NCBI GenBank assembly: GCA_011033025.1
Contig: WFMF01000169.1
Location: 1 to 64,000, forward strand
Length of the DNA: 64,000 nt
Source of the DNA: Beroe forskalii
Lineage: Eukaryota > Ctenophora > Nuda > Beroida > Beroidae
Direction of reading: 5' to 3'
Shown: in pieces, positions 3,369 to 56,735 of the stretch
Numbering within the stretch: the stretch's first letter is position 1
Layout of the letters: each line of letters begins with the position of its first letter
The notes under the pieces: generated by a model
The model's database searches: none
Told to the model about the DNA's origin: nothing
The model's input: only the letters and a program-made list of their open reading frames with translations
Made by a program: the position numbers and the translations under genes

Positions 3369-6300
3369 ATGTCAGATAAAAGAGACAGGGAATCTTCATA
3401 CTCAAGTACTAATGGTTGGTACTACATTGATTTTCCTAGTTTATTGCCCACAAACTGATATTGTTGACATTTAAGTTATTTCACCATTTGACAAGCAAAC
3501 CATTGCAGTCACAGCAAGGCATAAGTTTAAAAGTTTACTTAATTCAATTCAAGATTTTATTATGAATATTTTCTAGCACTTCAAATAGGTAAATATTTAC
3601 TTAGAGCTTTAGAGTATCTAAGTATATAATAGAGTATATAATATGTACCAATCAAATAATTGTATCTTTATTTGATTGTAATCCTGTTTCAGATAACAGA
3701 AGCAAAAGAGGGTTCTCTGCTCCTAAATCAGATCACATTAAAGTACGATCATCAAATAGTAGCAGTAGTGGGAACAGATATAGCCCATATGGTAGACCCA
3801 TAAATCACTCAAACAGTCAGTCTATGAGTCCTGATACCAATAAGCAGGAAAATATCCATCATAAATCAGAAAGATTGGTTTCAAGAGCCGATGATGCTTG
3901 CAAAGCTGAAAATGTTTACCATGTCCCAACACAGAAATACAAAGACTTTGAGGTAATTCGAAGAGGGACTCTGCCTTACCAGTTTGATGAAAAGATGTTC
4001 GATTACTTTCTGAGATGAATTCCATTAATGCGATCGAAATTCTAAAAAACAGCAATTCTTCAGGCTAAAAGTACTCCCCCAAAAGTAGCTGAAGATGCAG
4101 CCCCTAAAACGAAGTTAACTGTAGCTTCCGTCTTTAACTGTGACAGCTCTGAGGTTTGTGGATCTAGGTACTTTGTGAGGACTTCATACAATTTCTCATG
4201 CATTTTCATCAGTTTATATCATGAAAAAGCATGGGGAATGCTTGAAAATAATGATAAAATCTAATTCAACTCTCTAAATGTCTATCAAGCCATTCAGTAT
4301 GTTTTGAAACCATTAAGTTTCAAGAAAACTTATGAATGGCATAAAATCCTTTTGATGTGAAAAGATTCCAATATTTGCCAAAAACATTAAACGTTATTAA
4401 TACGTCAAGGTTTTTAAGTTTTTAGGATATTTTTGGGTTAAGGTCCTTAACCCAAAAAATCAAAATAAACCAAAAACAATAATTTTCCGATTCTTGAGCT
4501 TGTTTGTACTTTGTATGTAGTTTTGTACCTCTTGTACCTCTTGTAGGTTCTTGCTGGAAATCCGAGCTAGACCATCTGTTGTAGACCACCTGTGCTCCAG
4601 TCCAGTAGCGAGTTTGAGTTGGGAGAGGTATACCCGGGTACTGGTGGTTGATCTGGATACGTGCTCATGATATGGGATGTTAGTCTCGATTTGAAAGACT
4701 CTATGGACGGAGCACAGGTGACGCTGCAGGGGAGATGTTCCAAAGCTTGGGCCAGTCACTGCGAATGATTTATCAAACAGTGACTTGGCGTAGGATGGGG
4801 CTTTCTTGGGTAGAGGTGGAACAGAGCATCGAGTTCCTAGACGGATGTGTTCGTAGGACTTCAGTTGGAGGTCATTGGGAGCGATACCTTTGAGAATCTT
4901 CCAAACCTGGATGATGATGTATCTTTCTCGGCGTCTCTGGATTGACATGAGATCCTAACTTTTTAGGCGTTCCCAATAACTGAGACCTTGCAGCCGGATA
5001 TTTGACGAGTGAAGGCTCTTTGTGGTGATTCTAGCCTTTGGATATCACTCGTTAGTGTGGGTTCCATACTGGACAAAGTATTCCAGTCTGCTTCGGACAA
5101 TGGACTTGAAGAGGGTGAGCATGGTATTTCGGGATCTGTCTGAAGACACTAAGCACCCAGTTTGCCATTTTGTTGGCCTTTCGACAGCAGTCTTGACCTG
5201 AGTCGACCATTTCAAGTCAGGGGTGAGCATTATGCCAAGGTCTTTAACACTTGGTTTAAGGGGTATTTCTTGACCAGACGTAGTGATGTACTTGGTCCAC
5301 TGGGATGTGAATGGAAGCTGCTGGAGAAGGTGGCTTCTAGGTGTTCTGTAGAAGTATTAGTGCTGTCAAGTATTAGTGCTGCAATCAATGTTTTTAAAGT
5401 CTATAGGTATTATTTAAGTAATTTAAATGTAAATATAGAGTATCTTCAATTTCCTATCCTCTCATCAGCATAAAGACGACACCAGGCATATTCAAGCACC
5501 TACACAATCGATAACTAATGCCCTTTATTAGATCATCAGTATATGAACATAACAACAGCAAATGTAACAATAATATTCGTGATTTTTCATGCCACACCAT
5601 TCTATAATTATCTTGGAGTGCTGATAGCTGTCCCATTAGCAAATACTATATCGAATCACACTACATAACATCGTAACTTGATCAATGAATTTTATTCATC
5701 TCCGTAGATTTAAATCAGCATGATTAGATTTGTAACTGTAGCGATCTACAGGATGAAGAAGAAATACCAATGCAAGCCAGGATGAGAATGAGAAATGTGG
5801 GCAAGTAAGTGCAGCTCTTTGGTTTTCCATCATACAAAAATGCTTTTCTTCTTCATACAAATAATGCTTTTCGTTGTCTTTTGTCATTCCATCCCATTCC
5901 TTGATGTGAAGCATAGTAAAGCATACTTGATTGCAGTCAGTGATTGCACCATAATCTTAAACGCTGTGACATGCTTATGATTAATTGATCATTGCGAATA
6001 TTTAAGTGCCATGCATCTGAAATAGCAATATCCTTACCTGATGATCAATTATGCAGCAAGAGCGATTGCACAGCAGAAAGCCATTTATATTTTAAATGGG
6101 GCAGTGATAGATATTACTCATAAATTTTGAGTTCGTGATTCTGTCATAGTGGATAAACTTGGATAAACTCAGCTTCTGAGAGAATGGTTTTGTGCGTGTC
6201 TAAAGGCCCATTCGGCATTCTTATCGGTCACAATGATGAAATTTACTCTTTGTACGACGCAATGCAAGACGAATGACGAATTTGAAGGTGTCCTGCAATT

Positions 6301-7594
6301 CACGTGCGCGTTCTGATCACGCGCGCGTTCGATCGTGCGCACTCACTTATCTTAAAATTTTTATTACCGACTATGTTTTTGGCCACAACTTGGCTTTTTG
6401 GGGGAAGTTTGACCCTAAAAGTGTGATAACATACTTTGCTTGCCATGCTGATCAGATGATGACGAGGATCAAATAAGGGGGATCATCTCTTCAACACTAC
6501 CCACCATCCTCTTCAATCTTCATCCTAAAATTTAAAGTGGACATCCGCTTTTAAAAAATGGACGTCCACTTTTGAAGGGCAGACGATTTAGGAAATTTTG
6601 ATTGATTTTATCGGTATTTTCACAAGGAATTTCACAGCTTTTTCAAATTTTTCGAGAAGTCCGGGGGAGGGATGAGTTTTCGAATTTCGAAAAAAGGGGA
6701 AAGAGTGGTCTAAAATGGCTGGAATTTTGTGGACGTCCTTCATGTTTGGCCCCCTATCATGATGGCCTTTTCCCAGAGTTTATGAACATGTTACAAAACT
6801 AATGTAATCAATAAATAAGACACATTTATTTATTTGATATTTTCCATTTGTATGAAATTAATATGACCTTTTTGTACCAAATTATTTCCAATGGAAAGGT
6901 CACTTGCATCTACTGGAGGTACAAGGTGCCATGAATTAAGTTTGGTGAAAGGGCGACAGCTAGGCAATCTGCAGATATTTTATCTGGATTAACATGGTAT
7001 GATATATCGAAATTGAATTGAAATCATGCCCCATTCACAATGGAGTCATGAAATTTATTCGGATTTGGCTCATCCGAATAAATTTGGTGTATAAAATTAA
7101 TGAGCGATGAGCCGATGAATTTCGTGTTGTACTGTATGGAATATTTTGTAGTTGATTTAAAAGTGAAATTTGTTATATCAGTCATATCGATTTTATCAAC
7201 AAAATTACTTCGTTTATTTATAGACCATCAAACTTTATCTGTTCAACGTGGATTGCAGATTTTTAGGCATTTAGCCAAAATTGCTTAAAAACTTTTCCAA
7301 TTTCACGAGCCTCCTGTGCTTGTAGTTTTTCCGATATATGAAGGATTCACTTTGAATCCAATCATACGGGCTACTTTGCATATTTCAATGTGGTTGTTCA
7401 GCATTGTAGGTAACAAGTAACAACAATATTTCAGGAATACTCCAACATCCTCTGGTCCGAATAGCTTTGGTAAAACGAAGAGGGGATTTACAGATACTGT
7501 GAAGATGTGGGAGAAGGATCCTGTCAAAGTTGCTCAATTTATCGTGGAAAAACGAAAAGAAGGCGACGCACCCACTGAACCGAAAAAGATCTGA
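3369..7594 (+). CDS. PCNP: PCNP, PEST proteolytic signal-containing nuclear protein (5 exons)
   Basis: Exons: 3369-3414, 3693-3952, 4064-4153, 5752-5804 and 7435-7594 (TGA at 7592). Phases join exactly (1, 0, 0, 2) and all junctions are GT/AG, giving about 202 aa against about 178 in vertebrates. Recognition rests on the C-terminal half: APKTKLTVASVFN followed by acidic residues, then MRMRNVGKNTPTSSGPNSF, then a Lys/Glu-rich tail. This matches the conserved C-terminal block of PCNP, a small nuclear PEST protein linked in vertebrates to cell-cycle control and UHRF ubiquitin ligases. The Ser/Lys/Arg-rich N-terminal half (exon 2) is low-complexity and not conserved, as usual for the family. Intron 3 (4154-5751) carries a decayed LINE. 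An upstream in-frame ATG at 3213 exists but would add unrelated sequence. The identity is solid; the N-terminal exons are less certain. Confidence 0.82.
4480..5350 (-). mobile_element. Fragment of a non-LTR retrotransposon (RT C-terminal region), degenerate
   Basis: Read on the minus strand from about 5345 to 4480, broken frames give reverse-transcriptase C-terminal phrases in order: KDLGIMLTPDLKWSTQV, then TLFKSIVRSRLEYFVQYGTH, then SIQRRRERYIIIQVWKILKG. These are typical of CR1/L2/Jockey-type LINEs downstream of the catalytic YADD. Stops and frameshifts separate the pieces, so it is dead. It lies antisense in intron 3 of PCNP. Confidence 0.75.
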
Positions 7595-8463
7595 ATATGT
7601 CGCAACACTTCACTGTGGACATATATCAGTATGTTGCCTCCATGTAATATAAGGTTAGAGAGCGATGATTCCCAGACTATTTAAACTGAAAAGTCATTCA
7701 AACTTTCAATTTCATAGAACTTGGAACTCCCTCTGAGTTTTTTGTAGTTGGGATCTCGCAGGTTTAAATGAGAAACTGTCTGTAGCTTCTGCAATCGTCT
7801 AGCTTAACAACCGGCCCTTTGGCCAAATGTTTGTTCATAAAGGACGTTTTCCTAGGAGGGGGTCAGGGTGTTGTCAATACGGACCTTAGGGGTGGGTGTA
7901 TACGGACCAATTGTGGGCGTCAGAATTACCTGAATCTCTTTTTCCATAGGATGCCTGGTGTCAGTCACAAATGAGATGCCATTTAACTTTCGGGTGATTT
8001 TTCAAATTTTGTGTATCAATTCAATGATCAAATCTTTTGAAAACTATTCATGGTATTTGACGGGGGTTTATCGAACAGGGGTGAGGTACCCATAACCCAA
8101 AGTTCCAAAACAGATAGCAATTTTTGGAAATCCGAGGGCAGGCTTTCTATAACATTGCCAGGAAAATAAATTTTATTTGGTTGCGTGCATTAGGTGTAAA
8201 TGAACGTCTGACAAATTCTCTAAACTAAAACACAGGAGTTGAAATTATTGGGGAGGATTTTGACCCACTACGAGTAGTCGCAAGTCGTAGACCCACTATG
8301 AAGCTATGAATTATGATAATCCGTATCCGTAATTGACCCCCCCCCCCCTTCGGTTGATTACATTATATTTCAAGAAGCATTGTGATTTAAATCTTTCCCA
8401 ATGACAAAGGCGTTACATTTATGGGTGACTAAAAAACGTCTGCAATTTATTTCAATTATAATA
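7595..8463. other. Downstream of PCNP, no gene recognised
   Basis: No coding exon or structured repeat is evident. A CCGGCCCTTTGG motif near 7812 resembles the interior of the TIR element at 31993-32383. Confidence 0.4.
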
Positions 8464-8895
8464 AGGGATCGTTCACATATAACGTAATCTGTTGTTGACC
8501 ATGTTCGATCCCTCCCTCCTCCTCGTAATCAAACGTAATCAAAGTCCAACCCCCCTCTTGAGGTAATCATGGTTTACCCTTCCCCTCCCCCCCCCCTACT
8601 TGAGTAGAAACTGAAGAAAACGGACAGATTTAATACTTGAATATTGCTTATGTTTCAATTTTGGAAAACTCAGATGAAAATATTGAGGAAAGTTTTGAAA
8701 AATTTTGGTGACAAATGTTGATATTGAGTCGGTTTTCTGTCAAAAAATACCGAAAATTTCAAAGTCAAACATTGTGACGAAAATTGGATATTTTGATTAC
8801 GTAATCAAGTTCAACCACCGAAACCCTCTCCCCTCCCCGTAATCATTTGAAAACACCCCCTTCCCTAGATGATTGCATAATATGTGAGCGATCCC
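8464..8895. mobile_element. MITE with AGGGATCGTTCACAT ends
   Basis: The left end AGGGATCGTTCACATAT is mirrored by ATATGTGAGCGATCCCT at the right end. The interior has C-rich patches and several GTAATC motifs. Shorter relatives with the same ends lie at 36872-37040 and 48099-48272, and diverged copies at 35450-35615 and 44740-44888. Confidence 0.7.
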
Positions 8896-18909: not shown

Positions 18910-21900
18910 ATGAGTCAATTGAAGAGGATCTTGTTCTATGGGACCGACAGTTTGTCTGCAGCCGTATTGTCACAACTCCATCAGCAAGGTTATGAAGTTC
19001 GGAGTGTCACGAAGCATCCCCGGACACCAGTACACAAGTACTGCACCCGACATGGTCTGCCTGTGGAAGTGTTTGCCAGGGGAGCTCCGCCCTTTCCTTC
19101 AAATAAGGTTTGTTATTACCTCGTGCGACGAAAATAGGGGTTCGCTGTTATCAGTTCGGCATTCTGAGTAATGATGTCACTTTCAATCACGAGTCTTGTT
19201 GCTTTATTGGTGGAACATGATTTCCTGAATATTTCACTGTTTCATCCGGTTTCATAAGCATTTTTTACTTTAAACTTTTAAAATTCAGATACCTTCTTTT
19301 TCTGGGGCGTAGGCATGGCATGCAATTGGTAAACTACACGTAATATCATTCATACTTTCATACTTGGACTCCTCCATGGGCAGGCCCCCTCTAGTTTTCA
19401 AAAGGCCCCCTCTAGAAAAATCTAAGGGGGGGGGGGTGAGCTTGGACCTACCTAGGATTTTCTAAAAAAATTCATCGAAAGGAAGTTAGTATTAAGTTCA
19501 GTTAGACAGAAAATTTCCTGATATTCACCTTTTCAAGAGTTAAATCAACCAATAAAACATTATTTCAGTTGTAAGTTTATGCAAAATAGTGAAATTAGGG
19601 CCATGAAAAATGAAAATTTGCTTACGTAAATTTTGGCCCCCCTTAGTTTTGAAAAGACCCCCCCCCCCTATAAAAAATCTAGGGGGGGCCTTGGCCCCCA
19701 CTAGCTCAAAACAGTGTGTAATGGCATGCACTCCTCGGATATTATGCTGTAATACGATGGAATGATTTTACCCTCCCAGACCCAAGCACCAGAACTTGGA
19801 GTGGTCGCATCCTTTGGTGGCATGATACCTGGCTCTGTCATCAGGAGCACTAAGCGGGGTTTCGTCAATGTTCACCCATCTCTCATCCCCAAATACAAGG
19901 TAACTTACCGCCCTTCCTACCGTTTATTGTTTAAGCAACCCCATCCCAGTTCTTCCCAACCTCACTTTCCTGACAGTACAATCACTACCTTAACACTTGA
20001 GTGTAGTGGCCTGTTGGTGTAACAGAGTAACAATTACATGTAACATGCTTCATTCGTTATGTATCTCCCGATCCTTTCCTACTGTCGGCTGTATTAGAAC
20101 TGCTTATGAATTAACAATCACTTCCCCTTCCTGCTGGATCCCTTCAACAACCTTACCCTCCACACACGTACAGTAGCTTATCAATCTGAAACATAAGATA
20201 ATATTTTCTTTAGTTCTTCTTTCAACTCCCACTTCTCACCAGGGTCCTGCACCTCTCCCCACACCCTCCTAAACCCCCACTTCTCCCCAGGGTCCTGCAC
20301 CTCCCCCCCACACCCTTTTAAACCCCCACTTCTCCCCAGGGTCCTGCACCTCTCCCCCACACCCTCCTAAACCCCCACTTCTCACCAGGGTCCTGCACCT
20401 CTCCCTCACACCCTCCTAAACGGGGACACCTCACCAGGGTCCTGCACCTCTCCCCCACACCCTCCTATACCCCCACTTCTCACCAGGGTCCTGCGCCTCT
20501 CCCCCACACCCTCCTAAACCCCCACTTCTCACCAGGGTCCTGCACCTCTCCCCCACCCTCCTAAACCCCCACTTCTCCCAGGGTCCTGCACCTCTCCCAC
20601 ACCCTCCTAAACCCCACTTCTCACCAGGGTCCTGCACCTCTCCCCACACCCTCCCTAAACCCCCACTTCTCCCAGGGTCCTGCACCTCTCCCCCACACCC
20701 TCCTAATCCCCCACTTCTCCCAGGGTCCTGCCTCTCCCCACACCCTCCTAAACCCCCACTTCTCCCCAGGGTCTGCACCTCTCCCCCACACCCTCCTAAA
20801 CCCCCACTTCTCCCCCGCACCTCTCCCTACACCCTCCTAAACCCCCACTTCTCCCAGGGTCCTGCACCCACCCTCCTAAACCCCCACTTCTCCCCAGGGT
20901 CCTGCACCTCTCCCCCACACCCTCCTAAACCCCCACTCCTCACCAGGGTCCTGCACCTCTACCCCACACCCTCCTAAACCCCCACTTCTCCCCAGGGTCC
21001 TGCACCTCTTCCCTACACCCTCCTAAACCCCCACTTCTCCCCAGGGTCCTGCACCTCTCCCCCACACCCTCCTAAACCCCCACTTCTCACCAGGGTCCTG
21101 CACCTCTCCCCATCACCCTCCTAAACCTCACTTTTCCCCAGGGTCCTGCACCTCTCCAACACCCTCCTAAACCCCCACTTCTCCCCAGGGTCCTGCACCT
21201 CTCCCCCCCACCCTCCTAAACCCCCACTTCTCCCAGGGTCCTGCACCTCTCCCCCCACCCTCCTAAACCCCCACTTCTCCCCAGGGTCCTGCACCTCTCC
21301 CCCACACCCTCCTAAACCCCCACTTCTCACCAGGGTCCTGCACCTCTCCCCCACACCCTCCTAAACCCCACTTCTCCCCAGGGTCCTGCACCTCTCCCCC
21401 ACACCCTCCTAAACCCCCACTTCTCACCAGGGTCCTGCACCTCTCCCCATCACCCTCCTAAACCCCACTTCTCCCAGGGTCCTGCACCTCTCCAACACCC
21501 TCCTAAACCCCCACTTCTCCCCAGGGTCCTGCACCTCTCCCCCACCCTCCTAAACCCCCACTTCTCCCCAGGGTCCTGCACCTCTCCCCCCCACCCTCCT
21601 AAACCCCCACTTCTCCCCAGGGTCCTGCACCTCTCCCCCACACCCTCCTAAACCCCCACTTCTCCCCAGGGTCCTGCACCTCTCCCCCACACCCTCCTAA
21701 ACCCCCACTTCTCACCAGGGTCCTGCACCTTTCCAACACCCTCCTAAACCCCCACTTCTCACCAGGGTCCTGCACCTCTCCCTCACACCCTCCTAAACGG
21801 GGACACTGACTACGGGATTACCTTGTTGGAAGCCTTGCCTCGGTCCTTCGACCAAGGGAAGATCCTCCACCAAAGGCAGCTGCCAGTTCCCCTCCACATG

Positions 21901-24900
21901 AGTGGTGGGGAGTTCTGGGATCACACTGGTCGTCTGATGGGGGAAACTCTGGTGGGGTACTTGAATACCAAGCCTACCTTTCAGGTGGGATATTTTGTTA
22001 TTTATGTGTTTACTGGCCTAAATAAACCTTATCAATATTGTAAAACAGAGAGGTAGTTTGGAGACGTGGGCAAATAAATTACACAAATTGAGCCGAATGC
22101 CTTGAATTTATGTAGGGTGTTAGGAAGACGATCAGAATCTGGTTTAGAAGTCTATTTGACCATAACTTGTTCTGTTGCACGTCTGGAATGGCGAGAAAAA
22201 TCAAGTGCAAATGCTAAAATCCACTGTTACTATTATAACGCGCGCAAAGCAACACGTATAAAAGATCTTTTCTTACCACGGGGTTTACGTTTTTGTCCAT
22301 AATTTATGTCTTTTCATAATGTGAAAACTGAATTTATGAATTTTTCAATCGGCTTACTGTAATTATTATTTTATTGTCCAAGAAAAGCTTGAAAGCTTGA
22401 ACAGTTATATGAAGTATGATATTATTGACGTGTTTTATCTTCAGATAACCTTACACCTTCTATCAATGATACGTCCAAACTCCAAACGTCCAATTGAAAT
22501 TTTAGATGTATTGCAAATTTTTAATTTCTTTGAATTGCGATGTTCAAAAACTAAGCGCTCGCTCAGCGGCGCTGAGCGAGCTATATATTAGAATTTTTGA
22601 CAGGGTAAAAAGAATAATCCGTTTGATGCAGGGAGAATTCTATTGAGATTTTCAAACAGACAAATTAGTGAATCACTTCTTGTAAAATATGTTATTACAC
22701 TCTCAATGTCGACTTGAGCCAGCTAAGGAGGCAACAGCTATAGAGCCAGTAGCTAAAGCAAAACCGTAGACTACTTTTTCTCCAATATCCTCAAAGAAAC
22801 CTTTCGGAGGTTTGAAATCCCATTGTTCAGTCTGAGCGGCTTTATCAAAAATCTTTTTAGCAAAATGCTGACAGTTGTTATTGTTTATGTCATATCCTAT
22901 GTTGCTTTCTTTTTCTAGAATTTTCAGCAATTCATCCATACGGTAGATGGACGTATCTTGTTTCAGCCGCTCAACCGGCTTTTTCCTTGCACTCATAGAA
23001 GGTCCATTATTCACTATCATTTTCCGAGAAATTTGGTTGCATCCAATATAAACTCCTTCGTTGTTTCTTTCGAGAGAAATATAAATCCCAGCGTTTGTCT
23101 CCAATACCACGAAGGCATGGTAGTCTATGGACACCTTCATGTAAAAGTGGCAATTTTGCCTGATTCCAAGTTTTGTCAGAGAATGTGATTTTATTATCAT
23201 TAGACAAAGTTTACACAATAATTGACCTTGACCTTCGTTAAATAGAGTGGTGGTGGCATACAATGTCGAAAAAATCAAAACCAAAATTGATCTGTGAAAA
23301 GAATTAGAACTAAATTAATCTCGGCCATTTTAATGATAACAGAAACACAGGCCTCAAGCAATGAAGATGATAACGTGGTCTATAATCCGAATTTCAACCA
23401 CTTTTATCAATATCTAACTACCAGATAATTGAAGCACTGGTACACTGGACCATACCTACTGAAAATTGTATTGATTTATTAATCATGATAACAAAACACG
23501 AGTTTAAAGTTGATACAAGCCTCTTCTTAGAGAGACTGCAATTCCAAGCCAGGCCTGAATTGAGGCTTCCAAGGCTGGTAAAAATGTGAGGCACTACATA
23601 ATTGATGGCTTAGCTAGGATAAAAATTCATATCATAAGCCAAAATGGAGCATTAAGACACATTTCCCTGTGGTACAACTTGCTTCTCTATTGCTAGAACG
23701 TGTTTTTGAAACCTCATTTTCGATCTTTTTAGTGATTTTCGGTTATTTCTTGGTTACCAAATGCTTTGGATTGATCTTGCAGTGATTTTAAGGAATTATA
23801 GAAAACAGAATATTCATTATCTGGCCGAATTTGGATAATTTTGTCACTATCATACCGAAGTGTGTGTAAATTATCAGTTTTGAGCACAAATATAATCATT
23901 AGCCACATTTCAATGAATAGGATGACAAGAGTAACCCTTTACAATCATCTTGACAGGAGTTGCCAATCCTATAGCCAAAGTTTATGGTTATAAAGACACA
24001 ATTCTATTATTTTCTCTCCAGAATTCACAACTTAGTGTTTTTTAAACCTATGTAAGTGGTTGATAGTTAAATCTTCACTTTATTTGGCGAGAATTTTAGG
24101 TACTGCTATGCAATAAAGAACCAATTAGTAATCATATCAAAAGAAATGTAATGTTAGTTGGCCAGAAATGGATTAGAATATCACAATTGTGTATAAATTA
24201 TCATTTTTCGGCCATTTTAACTAATTCAGATAAATTTTTTGATTTGTATGCGATAGCAAACATTTTCACTATCTCTTATACAAGAAAAAGGCATAAATGC
24301 TGCTAAATTATTGATAATAACACATTTAGCTTTGTGTGTTGAAATTACCATATTGAGGCGATTTATGCGTGTTTCCATGACCCCAGATCAGCCACATATT
24401 GAGAAGTGACATATCAACAGGGCTAGTTACCTCCTTTAGCCTCTATGGTTATATTCAGTGTTCCAATGGATAGCAAAGTCACAAAAAAGTGTTTTTGTAT
24501 CAAATCGGGCCTTATTAATGAAATTTTGTATTTTTAGTGATTCCATTATCCTCAAATTACCCACTTGCTGATATCTGAAAAATTTCAACTGATTATCATG
24601 TTAATTGTCAAAGATATTCAACATTTTCGATTTTAACCAATTTCTGAAAAGCGGGAAATTGCCACTTTTACATGAAGGTGTCCATATGGGAGTAACCTGA
24701 GATCCAGAACCATCAGATCCACCTGGAACAGAAAATCCAGAACCACTGCCGAGGGCCGTGAGTGGAGTTTTGTACACTGATACGTGAGTTATTACCACGT
24801 CCCAACTCATTCTCATGGGGTATTCGCCAAAGATTTTACTCATGATGTTGGTATCTGGTCTAATCTTAAACCAAATATTTCCGGACGGATCTTTAGGAAA

Positions 24901-27900: not shown

Positions 27901-30900
27901 CTTGTAAAATATGTTATTACACTCTCAATGTCGACTTGAGCCAGCTAAGGAGAGAAGGAGGAAGCCGCTACAGAGCCAGTAGCTAAGGCAAAACCGTAGA
28001 CTACTTTTTCTCCAATATCCTCAAAGAAACCTTTCGGAGGTTTGAAATCCCATTGTTCAGTCTGAGCGGCTTTATCAAAAATCTTTTGTAAAAATGCTGA
28101 CAGTTGTTATTGTTTATGTCATATCCTATGTTGCTTTCATTTTCTAGAATTTTCAGCAATTCATCCATACGGTAGTTGGACGTATCTTGTTTCAGCCGCT
28201 CAACCGGCTTTTTCCTTGCACTCATAGAAGGTCCATCATTCACTATCATTTTCCGAGAAATTTCGTTGCATCCCATATAAACTCCTTCGTTGTTTCTTTC
28301 GAGAGAAATGTAAACCCCAGCGTTTGTCTTCATTACCACGAAGGCGTGGTAGTCTATGGGAGTAACCTGAGATCCAGAACCATCAGATCCACCTGGAACA
28401 GAAAATCCAGAACCACTGCCGAGGGCCGTGAGTGGAGTTTTGTACACCGATACGTCAATTATTACCACGTCCCGACTCATTCTCATGGGATATTCATCAA
28501 AGAGTTTACTCATGATGTTGGTATCTGGTTTAATCTTAAACCAAATATTTCCGGACGGATCTTTAGGAAATTGGATCATGGTTTTCTCTGATACTTCCTT
28601 TAATGACATGAATAGGTTAAAGTGGTATCAATCTCCATTTCACGCTAACATCATCTAAAAATTTTCGTTTGTTCATTCAAACACAACCGAACTGCAAAGA
28701 AATGAATATTCTTCTAATTTGGAATATGCTTCTAATTTAGAATATGCTTCAAATTTAGTGATCAGACTTATAATACCTCGAGAAATATAACGAAAATGGC
28801 AAGACAACTTCTTTTTTAATATGATTTTTAAAATGGTATTTGAAATTCTGGGGAAAGGAATGTGCCAACATTTAGAATCATAGAACTTAGTTGTACGTTG
28901 TACACATTGAAATATAATAAATAACAAGTGATCCAACATTATAAACAAAATAACAAGGAACCATGAAATCGGGAACTTCTTTGCAAGCAAATGTGACCGG
29001 CCTTGCTTTAGATTATTATGCAGCTATGCTGCCCAATGCCCATATTCAAGGTCATTGCTAAATCTTGGCAAGCTATTAAATTACAGATGCACGCATGAAA
29101 GCGGCAAACAATCATGGGAAAGTATCGAAGTTTGTGATTAAAAACTATGGTTATCAAGTATCTACTGCCTAATCAGAGACATTGTATCCCAGGGTGGGCC
29201 TAAAACAAGGCTATTGTTCAATAAACAGTGCGTTACCGGTTCTCATCGCACGAGGAGTAGCCGAGTGTGATGAGAACCTTATACCACGAGGCGAATTACC
29301 TTCCGAAACAGGAAATCCCTCGGTAACACCTTTTTTAGTCTAATCACTTTCAAACATAATTTTTCTGTAGTCCACTCGCACTATATTTCATTGGCAACGT
29401 GAATAATTGAATGCAATGGCCTGCCGCAGGCAAAAATCTTGTTTTTACGGAGATGCGTTTTTTGATTGTTTAGAGCAATATTAGACAATATTTGCATTTC
29501 GTGATAATCTAATAATTTATATCTTATGATTCGATTTATGGTTATCGTTAAAAAGTTGATATTTCCTTTAAAATAATTTTAAAAAGTAAATGATTGTAAA
29601 AGGTTAATGATTTTAAAAGTAAATAATTTATATGAGTATATGTGTGGTAATCGTTAACAAGTAAATATTTGCTTTTTAATGGACTTTTTAGTTTACAAAG
29701 AACCCAGACACAGAAACCAAAATGTTTCTCCCCATCCAACATAATATCATACTTTTCACTTTCTTATGCATCACAGTACTTCAAGGATAATGAAATAATA
29801 AATGCCAATCAGAAAATATGTTTCACATTAAAAGATTTAAAGACATAAAATGGACGCCTAACGTTTAAACTGTGGTAAGTACCATGGCTTGAATATTCGC
29901 CTTTCAACGCGATTTTTAGCGAACGTTTTTTGAAATTAACCTAGTACCAGAACTCCAGAAATATAGGCGACTAATAATTAAGTCGCAAGATATAAAGGCG
30001 ACAAGTTATTAAGGCGATTTTTTCCTGGAGTTCAAATTGAAGTTTTTTTCGAAAATAAACGATTTTTTTCAATTGAAATGGCTATGAAATGACTATAAAA
30101 TTGAACAAAAATACAGAAAATTTCTTGTTGAGTGAGCCCTCAAACTCTCAAAATACAGTACCTACATCAGATCCTGAGATTTTTAAACCGGTCAATCAAC
30201 ATTCTAGAGTCAATACCGGCATCTTTACATCAGATGAAGATTAGAATGATAAAGAGATTTCCAATAAAATAATACTTGAATAGGTATTTTAATTTGTTTT
30301 TGCTGGCTATCAAGTGATTTATTGTGTTCCTATATTGGGAATAGTCGATTGAGGAGAAAAAATAACTGAAAACAAAGTCTTATAAAAAATTAAGACGACC
30401 ATATATTTAGACGACCAGATATTAAGGCGACAAGAAAATAAGGTGATTTTTCCAAAATCGCCTTAATTTCTTGTCGCCTATATTTCACTAACGAATTCTT
30501 TCAAAGATCGCGACTTTTTGACTCCATTTGCGTCAGTTGTGTCCTTACTTAGCGGCTAGCCTGTCACTGCTTTAAATTTATGTAAATGCTGTAAGACTAC
30601 CAATTGTGACGGAAACCAATTGTGTTTCAGAGCAAGCAACAAGACTTACGACACGCATCCTCTGCCCCTAAAATCTCCGCGAAACAAATGAAGACCGTGG
30701 TACGAGTATGTCCGCACCTCCACACTGCTGATCAGATCTTCAACATTTCCCGCTGTGCTGATCTCTTCAAACTCTGTCCAACAGTATCATGGAAAGACAA
30801 GGCTCTCAAACTCAAAGGAGTCCACCTGGTCCGTGATGCTGACATAGTGAGTGTGCTGTCCTCCAGACTTAGACCCTGTCAGTTTGTGATGCACGAGGGA

Positions 30901-31009
30901 ACGCTCCTGTTACGGTGTGCTGAGGGTACTGTCCTGGGCATATCCCAGATAGTCCTACCTTTCAAGGACGTGCAAAGTGCTCAGCATTTCTACCGGGACC
31001 AGTGCCATG
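18910..31009 (+). CDS. MTFMT: MTFMT, mitochondrial methionyl-tRNA formyltransferase (exons 1-4; last exon uncertain)
   Basis: Exons: 18910-19107 (QLKRILFYGTDSLSAAVL), 19780-19899 (ELGVVASFGG then NVHPSLIPKYK), 21766-21984 (GPAPLPHTLLNGDTDYGITL, then FDQGKIL) and 30631 to about 31009 (APKISAKQMK and the C-terminal domain). All internal joins are phase 0. The enzyme formylates Met-tRNA for mitochondrial translation using 10-formyl-THF. The catalytic Asn and His (NVHPS) and the Asp (FDQG) are present. No mitochondrial targeting sequence precedes MSQLKR, so a 5' exon may be missing. Donor GTAAGA at 31010 suggests a further 3' exon that I cannot find; otherwise the frame runs on to a stop at 31099. 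Intron 2 ends in a minisatellite made from its own acceptor. Intron 3 (8.6 kb) contains two LRAT-like gene copies on the other strand. Confidence 0.9.
19375..19715. repeat. G/C-tract inverted repeat in MTFMT intron 1
   Basis: GGCCCCCTCTAGTTTTCAAA near 19383 is partly inverted in the TCTAGGGGGGGCCTTGGCCC stretch near 19678-19700. Runs of eight or more G or C occur at both ends. It is a likely small foldback element with imprecise limits. Confidence 0.4.
20231..21794 (+). repeat. Splice-acceptor minisatellite: about 32 tandem copies of the MTFMT intron 2/exon 3 junction
   Basis: The roughly 49-bp unit reads CCCCCACTTCTCCCCAG then GGTCCTGCACCTCTCCCCCA then CACCCTCCTAAA. The true exon 3 starts at 21766 with GGTCCTGCACCTCTCCCTCA, CACCCTCCTAAAC, encoding GPAPLPHTLLN, so each unit is a pyrimidine tract, an acceptor AG and the first 27 or so exon bases. 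The first acceptor-like AG ends at 20242 and the last, used one at 21765. The unit near 20389-20437 reads on into CGGGGACAC, which is exon sequence normally found only after the last copy, proving the exon is the source. A 49-bp unit shifts frame by one, so inclusion of several units meets TAA in CTCCTAAAC. Confidence 0.95.
22703..24939 (-). pseudogene. LRAT-like protein gene copy A, split by a transposon
   Basis: The 5' part is 24939-24685 (MSFKEVSEKTMNQFPKDPSG to GSGSQVTPI). The 3' part is 23127-22703 (DYHAFVVLETNAGIYISLER, then DINNNNCQHFAKKIFDKA, ending ASLAGSSRH). Copy B at 27945-28609 shows these are one reading frame interrupted by the element at 23128-24684. A His in an early strand (DYHAF) and an N-C-x-x-F motif (NNNCQHFAKKIF) fit the circularly permuted NlpC/P60 fold of LRAT/H-rev107-like acyltransferases, with Cys as nucleophile. 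That family call is inferred from motifs. The C-terminal stretch EKVVYGFALATGSIAVAS is weakly hydrophobic. Unless the element is removed as an intron, the product is truncated. Confidence 0.6.
23128..24684. mobile_element. 1557-bp non-autonomous TIR element, TA target duplication (Tc1/mariner-type)
   Basis: The left end TGGACACCTTCATGTAAAAG (continuing TGGCAATTT) is exactly inverted at the right end over 29 bp. TA flanks both sides (23126-23127 and 24685-24686). The paralogous copy B has the unoccupied site TAGTCTATGGGAG at 28350-28362. The interior is AT-rich with no transposase ORF. Confidence 0.88.
25385..25478 (+). repeat. tRNA-like (SINE head) sequence
   Basis: TGGTGTAGTGGCATCCGG resembles a pol III A box (TRGCNNAGTNGG). 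About 50 bases on, CCGGTTCGATCCTC is a B box (GGTTCGANTCC). The arms do not form a full tRNA cloverleaf, so this looks like the head of a tRNA-derived SINE. It lies in the segment present only in duplication copy A. Confidence 0.5.
26360..26525 (+). CDS. Candidate first exon of an unrecognised gene
   Basis: ATG at 26360 opens 55 codons (MSVNETDNGQRSNDGMFYTS, then KGTRNAPAGAILVKMVFEIL, GK) ending at a good donor, AAAG|GTATGT, phase 1. The peptide looks protein-like, hydrophilic then an amphipathic segment, but matches nothing I know. It is divergent from the LRAT-like gene A, whose start is 1.4 kb away, so they could share a control region. In duplication copy B only the last 30 or so bases of this exon remain (near 28830-28858) and the donor reads GGAATG, which is not usable. 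No downstream exon was found. Confidence 0.35.
26890..27310. repeat. Cluster of hairpins with GC cores
   Basis: Four stems in 420 bp: GGTTCTCATC...GATGAGAACC (26907-26948), TGCCTCGAGCGAAGCGAGTG plus GCA (27192-27214), a stem on CATTATTCA...TTGAATAATG (27222-27260) and one on TTGTTTTCA...TTGAAAACAA (27261-27298). Each has a short GC core such as CGAGGGCGCAGCTCGAG. The first also occurs in copy B at about 29237-29277. They are probably foldback elements. Confidence 0.6.
27343..29485. repeat. Direct duplication, copy B
   Basis: This is the shorter copy of the block at 22085-27145, about 95% similar by eye. It lacks the TA-flanked transposon and the 25160-26497 segment. Its right end (TTTAGAGCAATATTAGA) coincides with the end of copy A. 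Confidence 0.85.
27945..28609 (-). pseudogene. LRAT-like protein gene copy B, frameshifted
   Basis: ATG at 28609 opens MSLKEVSEKTMIQFPKDPSG and runs uninterrupted across the site where copy A carries a transposon (GSGSQVTPIDYHAFVVMKT), down to the NNNNCQHF motif. Immediately after that motif the DNA is one base shorter than copy A (near 28086-28092), shifting the frame. In the shifted frame the remaining codons correspond to copy A's FDKAAQTEQWDFKPPKGFFE region up to a TAG at 27945. The break falls just after the putative catalytic Cys. A sequencing error could also explain it. Domain assignment is as for copy A. Confidence 0.6.
29958..30486. mobile_element. MITE with AGGCGAC motifs in MTFMT intron 3
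   Basis: GAAATATAGGCGAC at 29958 is inverted as GTCGCCTATATTTC ending at 30486, with weaker pairing to about 25 bp. Further TTAAGGCGACAAG motifs recur inside on both strands. No ORF and no obvious target duplication. Confidence 0.6.
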
Positions 31010-31013
31010 GTAA

Positions 31014-31219
31014 GACGAGGAGGGTGTTGGAGATGCTCTACAACCCTCGTGATATGGGGTGTGACGAGGAGGGTGTTGGAGATGCTCTACAACCCTCGTG
31101 ATATGGAGTGCGACGAGGCAGGTGTTGGAGATGCTCTACAACCCTTGTGATATGGAGTGGGACGAGGCAGGTGTTGGAGATGCTCTATAACCCTCGTGAC
31201 ATGGAGTGGGACGAGGGCG
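31014..31219 (+). repeat. 49-bp minisatellite starting at the MTFMT exon 4 donor
   Basis: Four complete units starting at 31014, 31063, 31112 and 31161 plus a partial unit from 31210. The core is GTGTTGGAGATGCTCTACAA with CCCTCGTGATATGG. The first unit begins 4 bases after the predicted donor (ATG|GTAAGACGAGG). Unit boundaries read ATGGGGTGTGACGAGG or ATGGAGTGGGACGAGG, so the junction sequence may be part of the repeat. Confidence 0.85.
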
Positions 31220-32939: not shown

Positions 32940-34887
32940 CCCAGTATTTTGTTTTCCCGCAATTTCCACATTATATAATATATGTTACATAACACATTTC
33001 ATGATAAAACCAAACTGGAATTCTAAGACGCCAATTGGGCATTGTGGCAATGGAAATCAAGAAAAAATGAAATCCCCTGTCAATCCTTCCGGGATGAGAT
33101 TGAACGAAACCTCTGAAATCGGAATTTCGCGCTTGTGAGAAGATTTGCCCCGAGATCCTCTCACTGACATGAGCACACTTTTAAGAAGTGCAAAGGACAG
33201 TTTTACTCGCATGATACTGATAACGTCGCGGTATTCCTCGTTTGTCTTCTCAGCAATGAGTTCTGCAATCCTCTTATGAAAAGCCTGCGCATGTGGAGCC
33301 ATTCCTCCTGACGTGCTGTACACGAGGGGTGTAAAGCTGCACTTCTCCACCTGGATGACTCGCTGTTCATAGTCCCTCTTCATGATGTTCTCATGCTGGG
33401 TGTAGACCGACTTGATGTCGCGATCCTTGTAAGTGTCAGCATTTGGATGGAAGATTCTGACATCGAACATAGTCTTCTGGAAAGGTCCCCATAACCCTCG
33501 AGCAGAAATATCGAGGCGAGCTCTTTCTTCCGTATTCCCTTGGACTGTCTGACTAGAGTCAATCGGGATCAACTCAGGCTCAGTTCTAACGTCATGGCAA
33601 ACTTCCCGTAGAAACGCAGCATTTGTGTCACGAATCTTGTTGTGTCTGAAGATCAAGTAGCCACCATTTTTACAAATCAAGGTGTGGTCTACAGAGTTCT
33701 TCTTGCCACAAACACAAATTGCTGGGATGTTAGGAATCTGCCAGCCGTATCTCAGCCTGAGTGCATCCCGAAACTCTTCCTTGTTCAGCACCCACCCGAG
33801 AGAACCTTGGGGAAGAACAGTGAGCCATGCCCCGGCACCCTTCTCTTGGGCCAGGGTGATCGACCTTTTCAGCCTCTCATCAGAAGAGTTGGATACGATG
33901 GCAGAGATCCTCCTCAGCAGCCTCATCCCCTTGTCCTTCAAGCAATCACTAGTCGCCTCAGCCACAGCACCAGCCTGATACCCATCAAGGGATGACTCTT
34001 GTCCAATAATTAACTTCTTCAGATTGTCTGTGATTTTCACAGAAGCCTGAAATTCGAGTTCTGATCCTTCGACCGGGTTAGAAATATCAAGTCCACCAAG
34101 TCTCACAGGCAAGGTGAACAAGTCTCTCTCCGTATCCGAGATCTGTCTCCCTATTATTGCTGGTAGAAAGCACTGTCGAAGAGCATCTTCCAAAGGACGA
34201 AACAGTTCTGAAATTCCGGGTATGGTCCTCTGAACAAGTCCACCGGTGGCACAGCGCTTTCGTATAGGCAGTGTAGGCAGCCTGCGGATCGTCCTTACCT
34301 ATTTCCGCTAACTGCTCTACGTCTCTCACCCACTTAGCCACCTTATCTCTCACATATCTCTTCCTGAACTCCTCTGTCCCCAACACTGCACCGAGATGAT
34401 GCTCACCCTCGCTGGTGACCTGGATGCCACTACCCTTGAAGATCTGTTTAGCAGTCTGATAGCAGTCCTTCTTCACGTTCAAAACAGTTTTCGAGGGTTA
34501 AGGGTGATATCCATACCCAGGCCCCCTAACACACAGGGTGTCCCACCACTTCTTGATCTCATCAAGTCTCCCAGCTGCAGTTGAATCGTCTGCATACCAT
34601 GTCTGCTTACAAGCAGACGGATTAACCGCAGATGACAGCTCTGTGATAAGTGGCTTGACCCCCAGTGCGTAGAAAGCCATAGAAGCAACATCCCCCTGTG
34701 TGCAGCTCTCATGAGATCCAATGTACTCCACCTTCTGCCCATCATTCACAACAAGCATTGCCGGGCTCTGGTAGGTGTTGGCTATGAACTGATGCAAGGG
34801 TGGACATAGCTGTCTGATGTTGTGAACCGCCAGCTCTCTGTTGATAGTGTTGAAAGCGTTGTCTGCATCCACCAGCATAACACCCTT
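32940..34887 (-). mobile_element. RLE-type non-LTR retrotransposon, 5'-truncated, in unit X
   Basis: It is flanked by a 12-bp direct repeat AACTTAAACAAT (32928-32939 and 34888-34899); unit Y holds the empty site near 44175-44186. On the minus strand it starts mid-RT (LVDADNAFNTINRELAVHNI), includes the catalytic YADD at about 34604-34615, and ends in a C-terminal domain. That domain has CVCGK...DHTLIC, a zinc-knuckle pattern, then RARLDISARGLW and FDVRIF, fitting a restriction-like endonuclease as in R2/R4/NeSL-type elements. A stop (HP-stop-PSKTV) at 34498 and a frameshift near 34230 disable it. There is no poly(A) tail. Confidence 0.8.
33057..34886 (-). pseudogene. Reverse transcriptase / endonuclease ORF remnant (unit X)
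   Basis: The longest intact piece, 33057-34193, covers the connector (LFTLPVRLGGLDISNP), the CVCGKKNSVDHTLIC zinc pattern and the endonuclease-like C-terminus. Upstream pieces at 34087-34482 and 34498-34886 hold the RT palm with YADD. The RT fingers and any N-terminal domains are missing through 5' truncation. Confidence 0.75.
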
Positions 34888-35449
34888 AACTTAAACAATG
34901 CGTTCTCTACCCCAGGAACGCGCAATAAGCCCCGCTAAATTTGCCACAATTCTGCTTGAAGACATGGTATTTTATTTTCCGCGTTGTGCTTCCTAGAATC
35001 ACTCTCGTATAGATTGGAAAGTTTCATGACATTATAACGAAGGAATTTGGAGATATGCCTGTTGTACCCAATCGACCTTGTTAAAATCAAAATATATGCT
35101 TGTGTTTAACTGTAGCGAAAAATTTGGTCTTAGGCCCTTGTTTTTCAAGTTTTTGGCCTCTTGGGATCATTCTCGAATAGATTAAAATTTCATTGATTTT
35201 TGAGATATCGACGAGTTTAACATAGAATCCTCAATCCTCTAAAATCGCAGTTTGGCACAATTAGATTGCGGTCCTTCTTTTTACGCACAAGTGTGGGAGA
35301 CGCACGTACAGACTTTATCTTAGAACCGCGCGATTTTCCAATTATGTGTAGCGCCGCGCGCGCAGGCTAGGCCCGATCTGTTGCATTGCCGCGCTGTATC
35401 GGCTCCGATATTGACGACGTTTTTAATCGACATCAAAATTCTGACGTTC

Positions 35450-56331: not shown

Positions 56332-56417
56332 ATGAAAAACGTGCACTACCAGAACAAAGTCCAGGGGAAGAGTGGGAACGCTGCCAACGACATTACCAGT
56401 CATCTCTACCAGTATGG
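56332..56417 (+). CDS. Candidate first coding exon ending in a repeated donor
   Basis: ATG at 56332, after an in-frame TGA, opens MKNVHYQNKVQGKSGNAAND then ITSHLYQY, ending phase 2 at TATGG|GTAAGT. The donor is a consensus match and the peptide has balanced, protein-like composition. I do not recognise the family and find no next exon in the window. The last 21 exon bases and 19 intron bases form the unit of the tandem array that follows. Confidence 0.45.
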
Positions 56418-56735
56418 GTAAGTGTTTCACTGTCACCAGTCATCTCTACCAGTATGGGTAAGTGTTACACTGTCACCAGTCATCTCTACCAGTATGGGTA
56501 AGTTTTTCACTGTCACCAGTCATCTCTACCAGTATGGGTAAGTGTAACACTGTCACCAGTCAGCTCTACCAGTATGGGTAAGTGTTTCACTGTCACCAGT
56601 CAGCTCAACCAGTATGGGTAAGTGTTTCACTGTCACTAGTCATCTCTACCAGTATGGGTAAGTGTTTCACTGTCACCAGTCATCTCTACCAGTATGGGTA
56701 AGTGTTACACTGTCACTAGTCATATCTACCTTTAC
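56397..56735 (+). repeat. 40-bp splice-donor minisatellite
   Basis: Eight units, exactly 40 bp apart, each reading CAGTCATCTCTACCAGTATG then GGTAAGTGTTTCACTGTCAC, plus a decayed ninth. GTAAGT occurs at 56418, 56458 and so on. The first unit overlaps the end of the candidate exon at 56332-56417. Confidence 0.92.

Follow-up and report, generated by a model that had tools for sequence, protein, structure and literature searches.

A boundary-spanning minisatellite multiplies the 3' splice site of intron 2 in an apparently intact ctenophore MTFMT gene

The intron 2/exon 3 boundary of the MTFMT gene of Beroe forskalii is occupied by a 49-nt minisatellite that offers 32 acceptors in series, only the last of which leads to a full-length protein in spliced models. 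The locus is probably best explained as a boundary-spanning minisatellite, of the kind called 'mirage' in lancelets, in an apparently intact ctenophore gene, in which the last copy is used and the decoys are wasted. The features on which the argument is built lie within the 64,000-nt stretch of DNA analysed here (the window) and are as follows, with a slash marking splice sites:

18910-19107, plus strand: MTFMT exon 1, 66 codons, donor AAG/GTTTGT; start inferred from an ATG after an in-frame stop
19780-19899, plus strand: MTFMT exon 2, 40 codons, Formyl_trans_N, donor AAG/GTAACT; from PF00551 and splice sites
19900-21765, plus strand: MTFMT intron 2 at present, 1866 nt; from the spliced-model coordinates
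20224-21798, plus strand: 49-nt minisatellite, 33 units, 32 acceptors CAG/GGTC; from TRF, split at the acceptor
20389-20437, plus strand: copy 4, exon-like through CGGGGACAC, then in register to CTCACCAG
about 20807-20857, plus strand: unit without the acceptor AG, apparently deleted; from the unit alignment
21749-21765, plus strand: pyrimidine tract and AG of the last copy, the sole acceptor yielding an open frame; from frames and scores
21766-21984, plus strand: MTFMT exon 3, 73 codons, donor CAG/GTGGGA; from homology and splice sites
30631-31101, plus strand: MTFMT exon 4 to the stop, C-terminal Fmt domain; from the human probe and the fmt model

The preliminary description had reported an array built from the acceptor region of exon 3; the array is real, although its limits are slightly wider and it comprises, as assembled, 33 units with 32 acceptors. 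It is the top-scoring TRF array within the window (period 49, 33.1 copies, score 2511). Its unit does derive from the intron/exon boundary, as had been proposed, and combines the terminal 16 nt of intron 2 with the 33 nt that open exon 3, the exon half being established by homology. In the consensus, the exon side reads GGTCCTGCACCTCTCCCCCACACCCTCCTAAAC (33 nt) and is followed by the intron side CCCCACTTCTCMCCAG (16 nt). When split at the acceptor, 32 of the 33 units retain the AG/GGTC boundary, and the distance from one acceptor to the next is 40-88 nt (46-49 nt in 29 of 31 spacings). The last copy continues directly into GGGGACACTGACTACGGG..., the body of exon 3.

The units are alike rather than identical. 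Their mean pairwise identity, with gaps counted, is 0.892 and that of adjacent units is 0.895, which leaves hardly any neighbour signal; the longest exact repeat inside the array (99 nt, offset 337) may represent the copy of a multi-unit block. Of the 49 columns of the unit alignment, 40 are conserved in 30 or more of the 32 units, and for 35 of them the figure is 31 or more. Moreover, 18 G4-type motifs were found in the array vs 3 in the rest of the window, on either strand. The G-rich strand is the complementary one, and this G-richness may help to explain the instability of the array.

The identity of the host gene has been established on the joined model (18910-19107, 19780-19899, 21766-21984 and 30631-31101), which gives 335 residues with GT donors and AG acceptors at all three introns. 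Homology to the N- and C-terminal Fmt domains is found along this protein, residues 6-303 of which match TIGR00460 (NCBIfam fmt) with E 2e-37, at 129 bits, below the curated bacterial equivalog cut-off of 201.5. The best match among PDB Fmt chains has E 2.1e-17, and in it the N-x-H and D positions of Fmt, which we take to be catalytic, are aligned and kept. Exon 1 alone has no Pfam match (query 18913-19089) and lies within the stretch that TIGR00460 matches in the joined protein, while exon 2 matches PF00551 with E 3.2e-9 (query 19777-19899, beginning 3 nt upstream). Exon 3 (GPAPLPHTLLNGDTDYG...) aligns with Fmt homologues: tblastn with bacterial-type Fmt relatives places it at 21766-21984, a human MTFMT probe matches it with 40% identity and E 2.7e-10, and its PF00551 match is weak and below cut-off (E 0.015). 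The same probe finds exon 4 from about 30634 (E 0.010, 27% identity). A protein search with exons 1-3 returned 5 Fmt-like proteins, taken for bacterial, and the comparison of MTFMT is limited to such relatives. A second Formyl_trans_N locus exists in the assembly, on contig C440; it reads IVYHPSILPAHRG... and ...DGLDTGPILLQ, presumably a 10-formyltetrahydrofolate (10-formyl-THF) dehydrogenase. Judged by its sequence, the MTFMT gene is apparently intact.

Several further elements were observed around the gene. A second 49-nt array (4.1 copies, 31014-31216) is found at the 3' end of exon 4, beginning right after a donor-like CATG/GTAAGA; either it sets the C-terminal tail and the stop of the MTFMT model, or exon 4 ends before the array. 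Intron 3 harbours two related open frames on the minus strand (22703-23314 and 28001-28627), which suggests a duplicated segment; the former has a sub-threshold match to PPPDE peptidase (PF05903). On the same strand, frames with a YADD motif at 33057-34890 look, by eye, like a retroelement reverse transcriptase. Rfam gave no matches on the window and on contig C213 (the contig of the MTFMT array), segments L015-L022, and one borderline SNORD36 on segments L023-L034.

The consequences of using each acceptor were followed in spliced models, joining exon 2 in turn to each of the 32. The full 335-residue protein is obtained from copy 32 only (21766), and all 31 upstream acceptors lead to a premature stop located 175-1712 nt before the exon 3/4 junction. 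In 30 of these 31 cases translation first meets the TAA contained in the CCTAA of the repeat, and with the copy 29 acceptor it ends at a TGA within exon 3; ten of the upstream acceptors share the frame of exon 3 and are non-productive all the same. Both predictions of the preliminary description, that the last copy alone keeps the frame and that most upstream choices run into the TAA of the repeat, are thereby confirmed. According to the usual 50-55 nt rule, which is vertebrate-based, a stop lying farther than this before an exon junction leads to nonsense-mediated decay, so that by this rule all 31 upstream products would be decay targets.

The strength of the acceptors was estimated with a generic matrix, the frequencies of which, like the branch-point rules applied, are vertebrate-based. 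With this generic matrix, 31 of the 32 array acceptors score 7.8-11.6, no lower than the two other acceptors of MTFMT (7.5 for exon 2 and 4.3 for exon 4; 4.1 for exon 2 of URM1). The description of the acceptors as near-identical needs one correction: copy 5 scores only -0.9, its pyrimidine tract being ruined because the CGGGGACAC substitution of copy 4 directly precedes it. A score of at least 9 is reached by 20 of the 32 array acceptors vs 0.98% of the 3371 other AGs in the window; the acceptor signals of the array are not due to chance. In the nine copies inspected, a TNA candidate branch point is always present 18-19 nt upstream of the AG, and the AG-free zone upstream of the acceptor extends over 45-47 nt in eight of them and 27 nt in copy 1; inside the repeat, the candidate branch point is the exon-derived CTAAAC. 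The last acceptor scores 8.5 with the generic matrix and ranks 21 of 32, with ties. Local acceptor score, then, does not single out the last copy; what is unique to it is the full exon 3 downstream, with a donor 219 nt away. Recursive splicing within the array was rejected by inspection, since the AG is followed by GGTCC and not by GTRAG.

From this anatomy, and from the frames and stops, a plausible history of the locus can be drawn. A segment straddling the boundary, with 16 nt from intron 2 and 33 nt from exon 3, would have been duplicated and then amplified to 33 units, probably by slippage or unequal exchange. Through this growth, 1.5 kb would have come to separate the working acceptor from the original intron sequence upstream; measured to the first array acceptor, intron 2 would be 343 nt long (19900-20242). 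The typical unit would constitute a small self-contained 3' splice site in which CTAAAC, the candidate branch point some 19 nt upstream, is followed by a C-rich pyrimidine tract and CAG. A working enzyme could be made from the last copy only, and this copy is most likely chosen often enough because, in the manner of exon definition, it alone adjoins the complete exon of 219 nt with its donor. Transcripts from the other 31 acceptors would be wasted, with stops placed for nonsense-mediated decay, and the array may have persisted in a near-neutral manner. Under intron definition, however, the first copy could be preferred, since it retains the original context upstream and would make the shortest intron; the gene would then be largely silenced.

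Two further arrays at exon boundaries have been found on contig C213; neither they nor the lancelet precedent had been foreseen in the preliminary description. The first, a 45-nt unit repeated 101 times (TRF, 179779-184299), adjoins an Ephrin_rec_like exon (PF07699, E 2.3e-8) and holds 98 intact CAG/GTAAC donors. From one chosen acceptor, only the first two of these donors leave the exon open and in phase with the one that follows; this supposed following exon has no Pfam match. The second (188276-188780, minus strand; a 55-nt unit repeated 9.3 times, TRF) lies on the acceptor side of a papain-like exon (PF00112, E 2.5e-6 with two exons joined). Its unit, ..TGACAG/GTAGGAGCAATTGAAGCA.., reads VGAIEA, continuing the papain-like exon, and twelve GACAG/GT sites are present; the remainder of this gene was not located. 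In most of the units (TGACAG/GTAGGAG) the acceptor is directly followed by a donor-like GT, an arrangement that resembles recursive splice sites. In addition, a 40-nt unit repeated 8.4 times at 56395-56730 of the window contains eight copies of donor-like TATGG/GTAAGT, and the adjoining open frame has no Pfam match. Similarly, a 55-nt unit at C213:137635-137826 (minus strand) with CACTCTG/GTAAGTCTG, donor-like and scoring 10.7, adjoins an open frame with the look of a signal peptide and no Pfam match.

Over 260 kb of C213, 86 arrays that do not overlap take up 32.6 kb, and a general excess of splice motifs in their units did not reach significance at any of the thresholds tried. With the first thresholds, a strong donor was found in 3 of the 86 arrays and a strong acceptor also in 3, vs means of 3.6 and 3.0, respectively, in non-repeat segments; this donor threshold misses the Ephrin_rec_like array (8.6) and that at 56395 (8.8). 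Lowering it to 8.5 gives 7 of 86 arrays vs a non-repeat mean of 4.6 (17% of 300 draws reach 7), and to 8.0 gives 8 of 86 vs 6.7 (reached in 35% of draws). Without significant enrichment, the boundary arrays look like a by-catch of many arrays. As a rough estimate, 86 founding units (of some 50 nt, a guess) in 260 kb would span about 3 of about 200 junctions (also a guess). Read most simply, minisatellites arise readily in this genome, and some of them happen to start on exon edges.

Among the other explanations, the one that survives best, although it is unlikely, is that the loss of the mitochondrially encoded tRNA-Met, its usual substrate, has left MTFMT under relaxed constraint or decaying in this lineage, and that the array is tolerated for that reason. 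The COX1 of the assembly (Pfam match E 2.2e-99) is located on contig C1134, of 13,339 nt and 82.5% A+T. All the recognised mitochondrial long open frames are on one strand of this contig, with no open frame of at least 80 codons listed on the opposite strand. TGA is read as W, and AGA occurs at arginines such as those in PRINN and DTRFYFASAT, which we take to be conserved positions; AGA as arginine speaks against bilaterians, lancelets included. ARAGORN, set to the bacterial code and run on the 13.3 kb contig in three pieces, called no tRNAs. In Beroe cucumis and other ctenophores, mitochondrial genes on the same strand, no tRNAs, about 81.5% A+T and fast evolution have been described, the genome of B. 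cucumis being shorter (10,487 bp; PMC7687593); translation table 4, the lack of tRNAs and unidirectional transcription are likewise given for ctenophore mitochondria (PMC6991124). C1134 is therefore a ctenophore-type mitochondrial contig. Two of its open frames, 4311-4691 and 7546-8649, share about 50 residues near their N-terminal ends, and one of them may correspond to the unidentified reading frames known from ctenophores.

Ctenophores have been reported without any mitochondrial tRNAs, in an account that does not mention MTFMT (PMC4558845), and such a loss means that the constraint on MTFMT itself may be relaxed. It would also fit this explanation that no N-terminal extension directly precedes the first ATG, where a further upstream exon is possible. 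Against it stand the open 335-residue frame, the GT-AG sites, the full-length fmt match and the aligned active-site positions; moreover, the arrays at other genes need no such excuse.

Less probable still is that the array acts as a tunable brake, as put forward in the preliminary description, and is kept by selection: its length would determine how large a fraction of transcripts is diverted to decoy acceptors, and hence the level of MTFMT. The non-productive outcome of all 31 upstream acceptors, with stops at least 175 nt before the exon 3/4 junction, and the range of 7.8-11.6 of 31 of the 32 acceptors with the generic matrix speak for such a brake. The two AG columns, however, are kept in 31 of 32 units each, no better than ordinary columns, and conservation across the units gives no sign of selection for decoy acceptors. 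One unit lacks the AG, another has a ruined pyrimidine tract, and similar arrays occur at unrelated genes on C213. The brake is thus possible yet unsupported. A broader proposition, that boundary minisatellites are frequent in ctenophore genes, that the choice among copies is made by position alone and that array length is a heritable, fast-mutating dial of expression, is equally improbable; if true, near-identical signals would compete, with the last acceptor and the first donor as the productive ones, and array length would quantitatively set the yield of correct mRNA.

It is scarcely credible that the array arose through the chance arrival of a satellite or as an artefact of assembly, and the first of these is largely refuted: C213 is indeed very rich in minisatellites, but the unit matches the end of the local intron and the start of the exon and was found nowhere else in the assembly, and the many private variants of the units, at the mean identity already given, speak against copied reads. 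A search of the 216 Mb assembly, which skips very common words, gave 15 matches to the unit, all inside C213:20224-21795, so that the same unit far from MTFMT, looked for as a refutation of the boundary origin, did not appear; exon 3 itself is single copy. Since the exon half is conserved Fmt coding sequence, the array arose from the gene and not the reverse. Copy 4 had been proposed as proof of this direction; it does run into CGGGGACAC, present in the window only at 20421 and 21798, but it looks like an in-register chimera of exon 3 and repeat, best read as conversion between copies, and the protein homology of the exon half is a better ground for the direction.

The locus offers a ready-made competition experiment among 32 near-identical acceptors in series, one of them productive in models, with a clean read-out (full-length frame or early stop). 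Together with the mirror-image array of 98 donors, it could help to separate intron definition, exon definition and scanning in an early-branching animal.

Several known systems resemble this array. In NAGNAG and other tandem acceptors, two 3' splice sites a few nt apart compete, whereas here 32 sites, with their own tracts, are 40-88 nt apart. The minisatellite of human IFI6 (6-16; Turri et al. 1995) also offers many copies of one splice site, but these are donors with reported usage, two downstream units being used (PMC4526556), while the MTFMT array offers acceptors; with both strands of its unit scored, the best donor-like score is 5.8, on the other strand. Intron gain by tandem genomic duplication, as in the potato RdRp, likewise alters gene structure by duplication at a splice signal (PMC4974935); at MTFMT no new intron is evident, and an existing one is about 1.5 kb longer.

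The closest relatives are the lancelet mirages, described as minisatellite-like tandem duplications across an intron/exon boundary in amphioxus BflGb6, BflGb9, Adh3 and TnC, with imperfect ones in PGBD5 (PMC3087553, PMC3902484). Like the MTFMT array, the BflGb6 mirage repeats the 3' end of an intron and the 5' part of an exon, with 6 and 3 units of 150-160 bp in its two haplotypes; Adh3 units are of 10-72 bp, and the Adh3 data and globin RT-PCR suggest that regular splicing is left undisturbed (PMC3087553). Many, although not all, units of the amphioxus mirages carry splice signals (PMC3087553, PMC3902484), compared with 32 of 33 at MTFMT. Splicing was looked at there by RT-PCR, and the host is a cephalochordate, whereas the present case is a ctenophore array of 33 x 49 nt with 32 acceptors. 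The mirage hosts on record are cephalochordates, which is a matter of record and not of definition. A literature search, with most subscription journals outside its scope, found, among the papers listed, no report of boundary-spanning arrays in ctenophores, which is weak evidence of absence. The MTFMT array thus belongs to a known kind, the boundary-spanning minisatellite, but occurs outside the phylum of the lancelets and exceeds the lancelet globin mirages in copy number. What it adds is this new phylum and higher copy number, together with a frame that is lost at every decoy and two further boundary arrays on the same contig. The occurrence of mirages in a ctenophore as well as in lancelets suggests that they are no peculiarity of lancelets but arise as a by-product in genomes rich in minisatellites.
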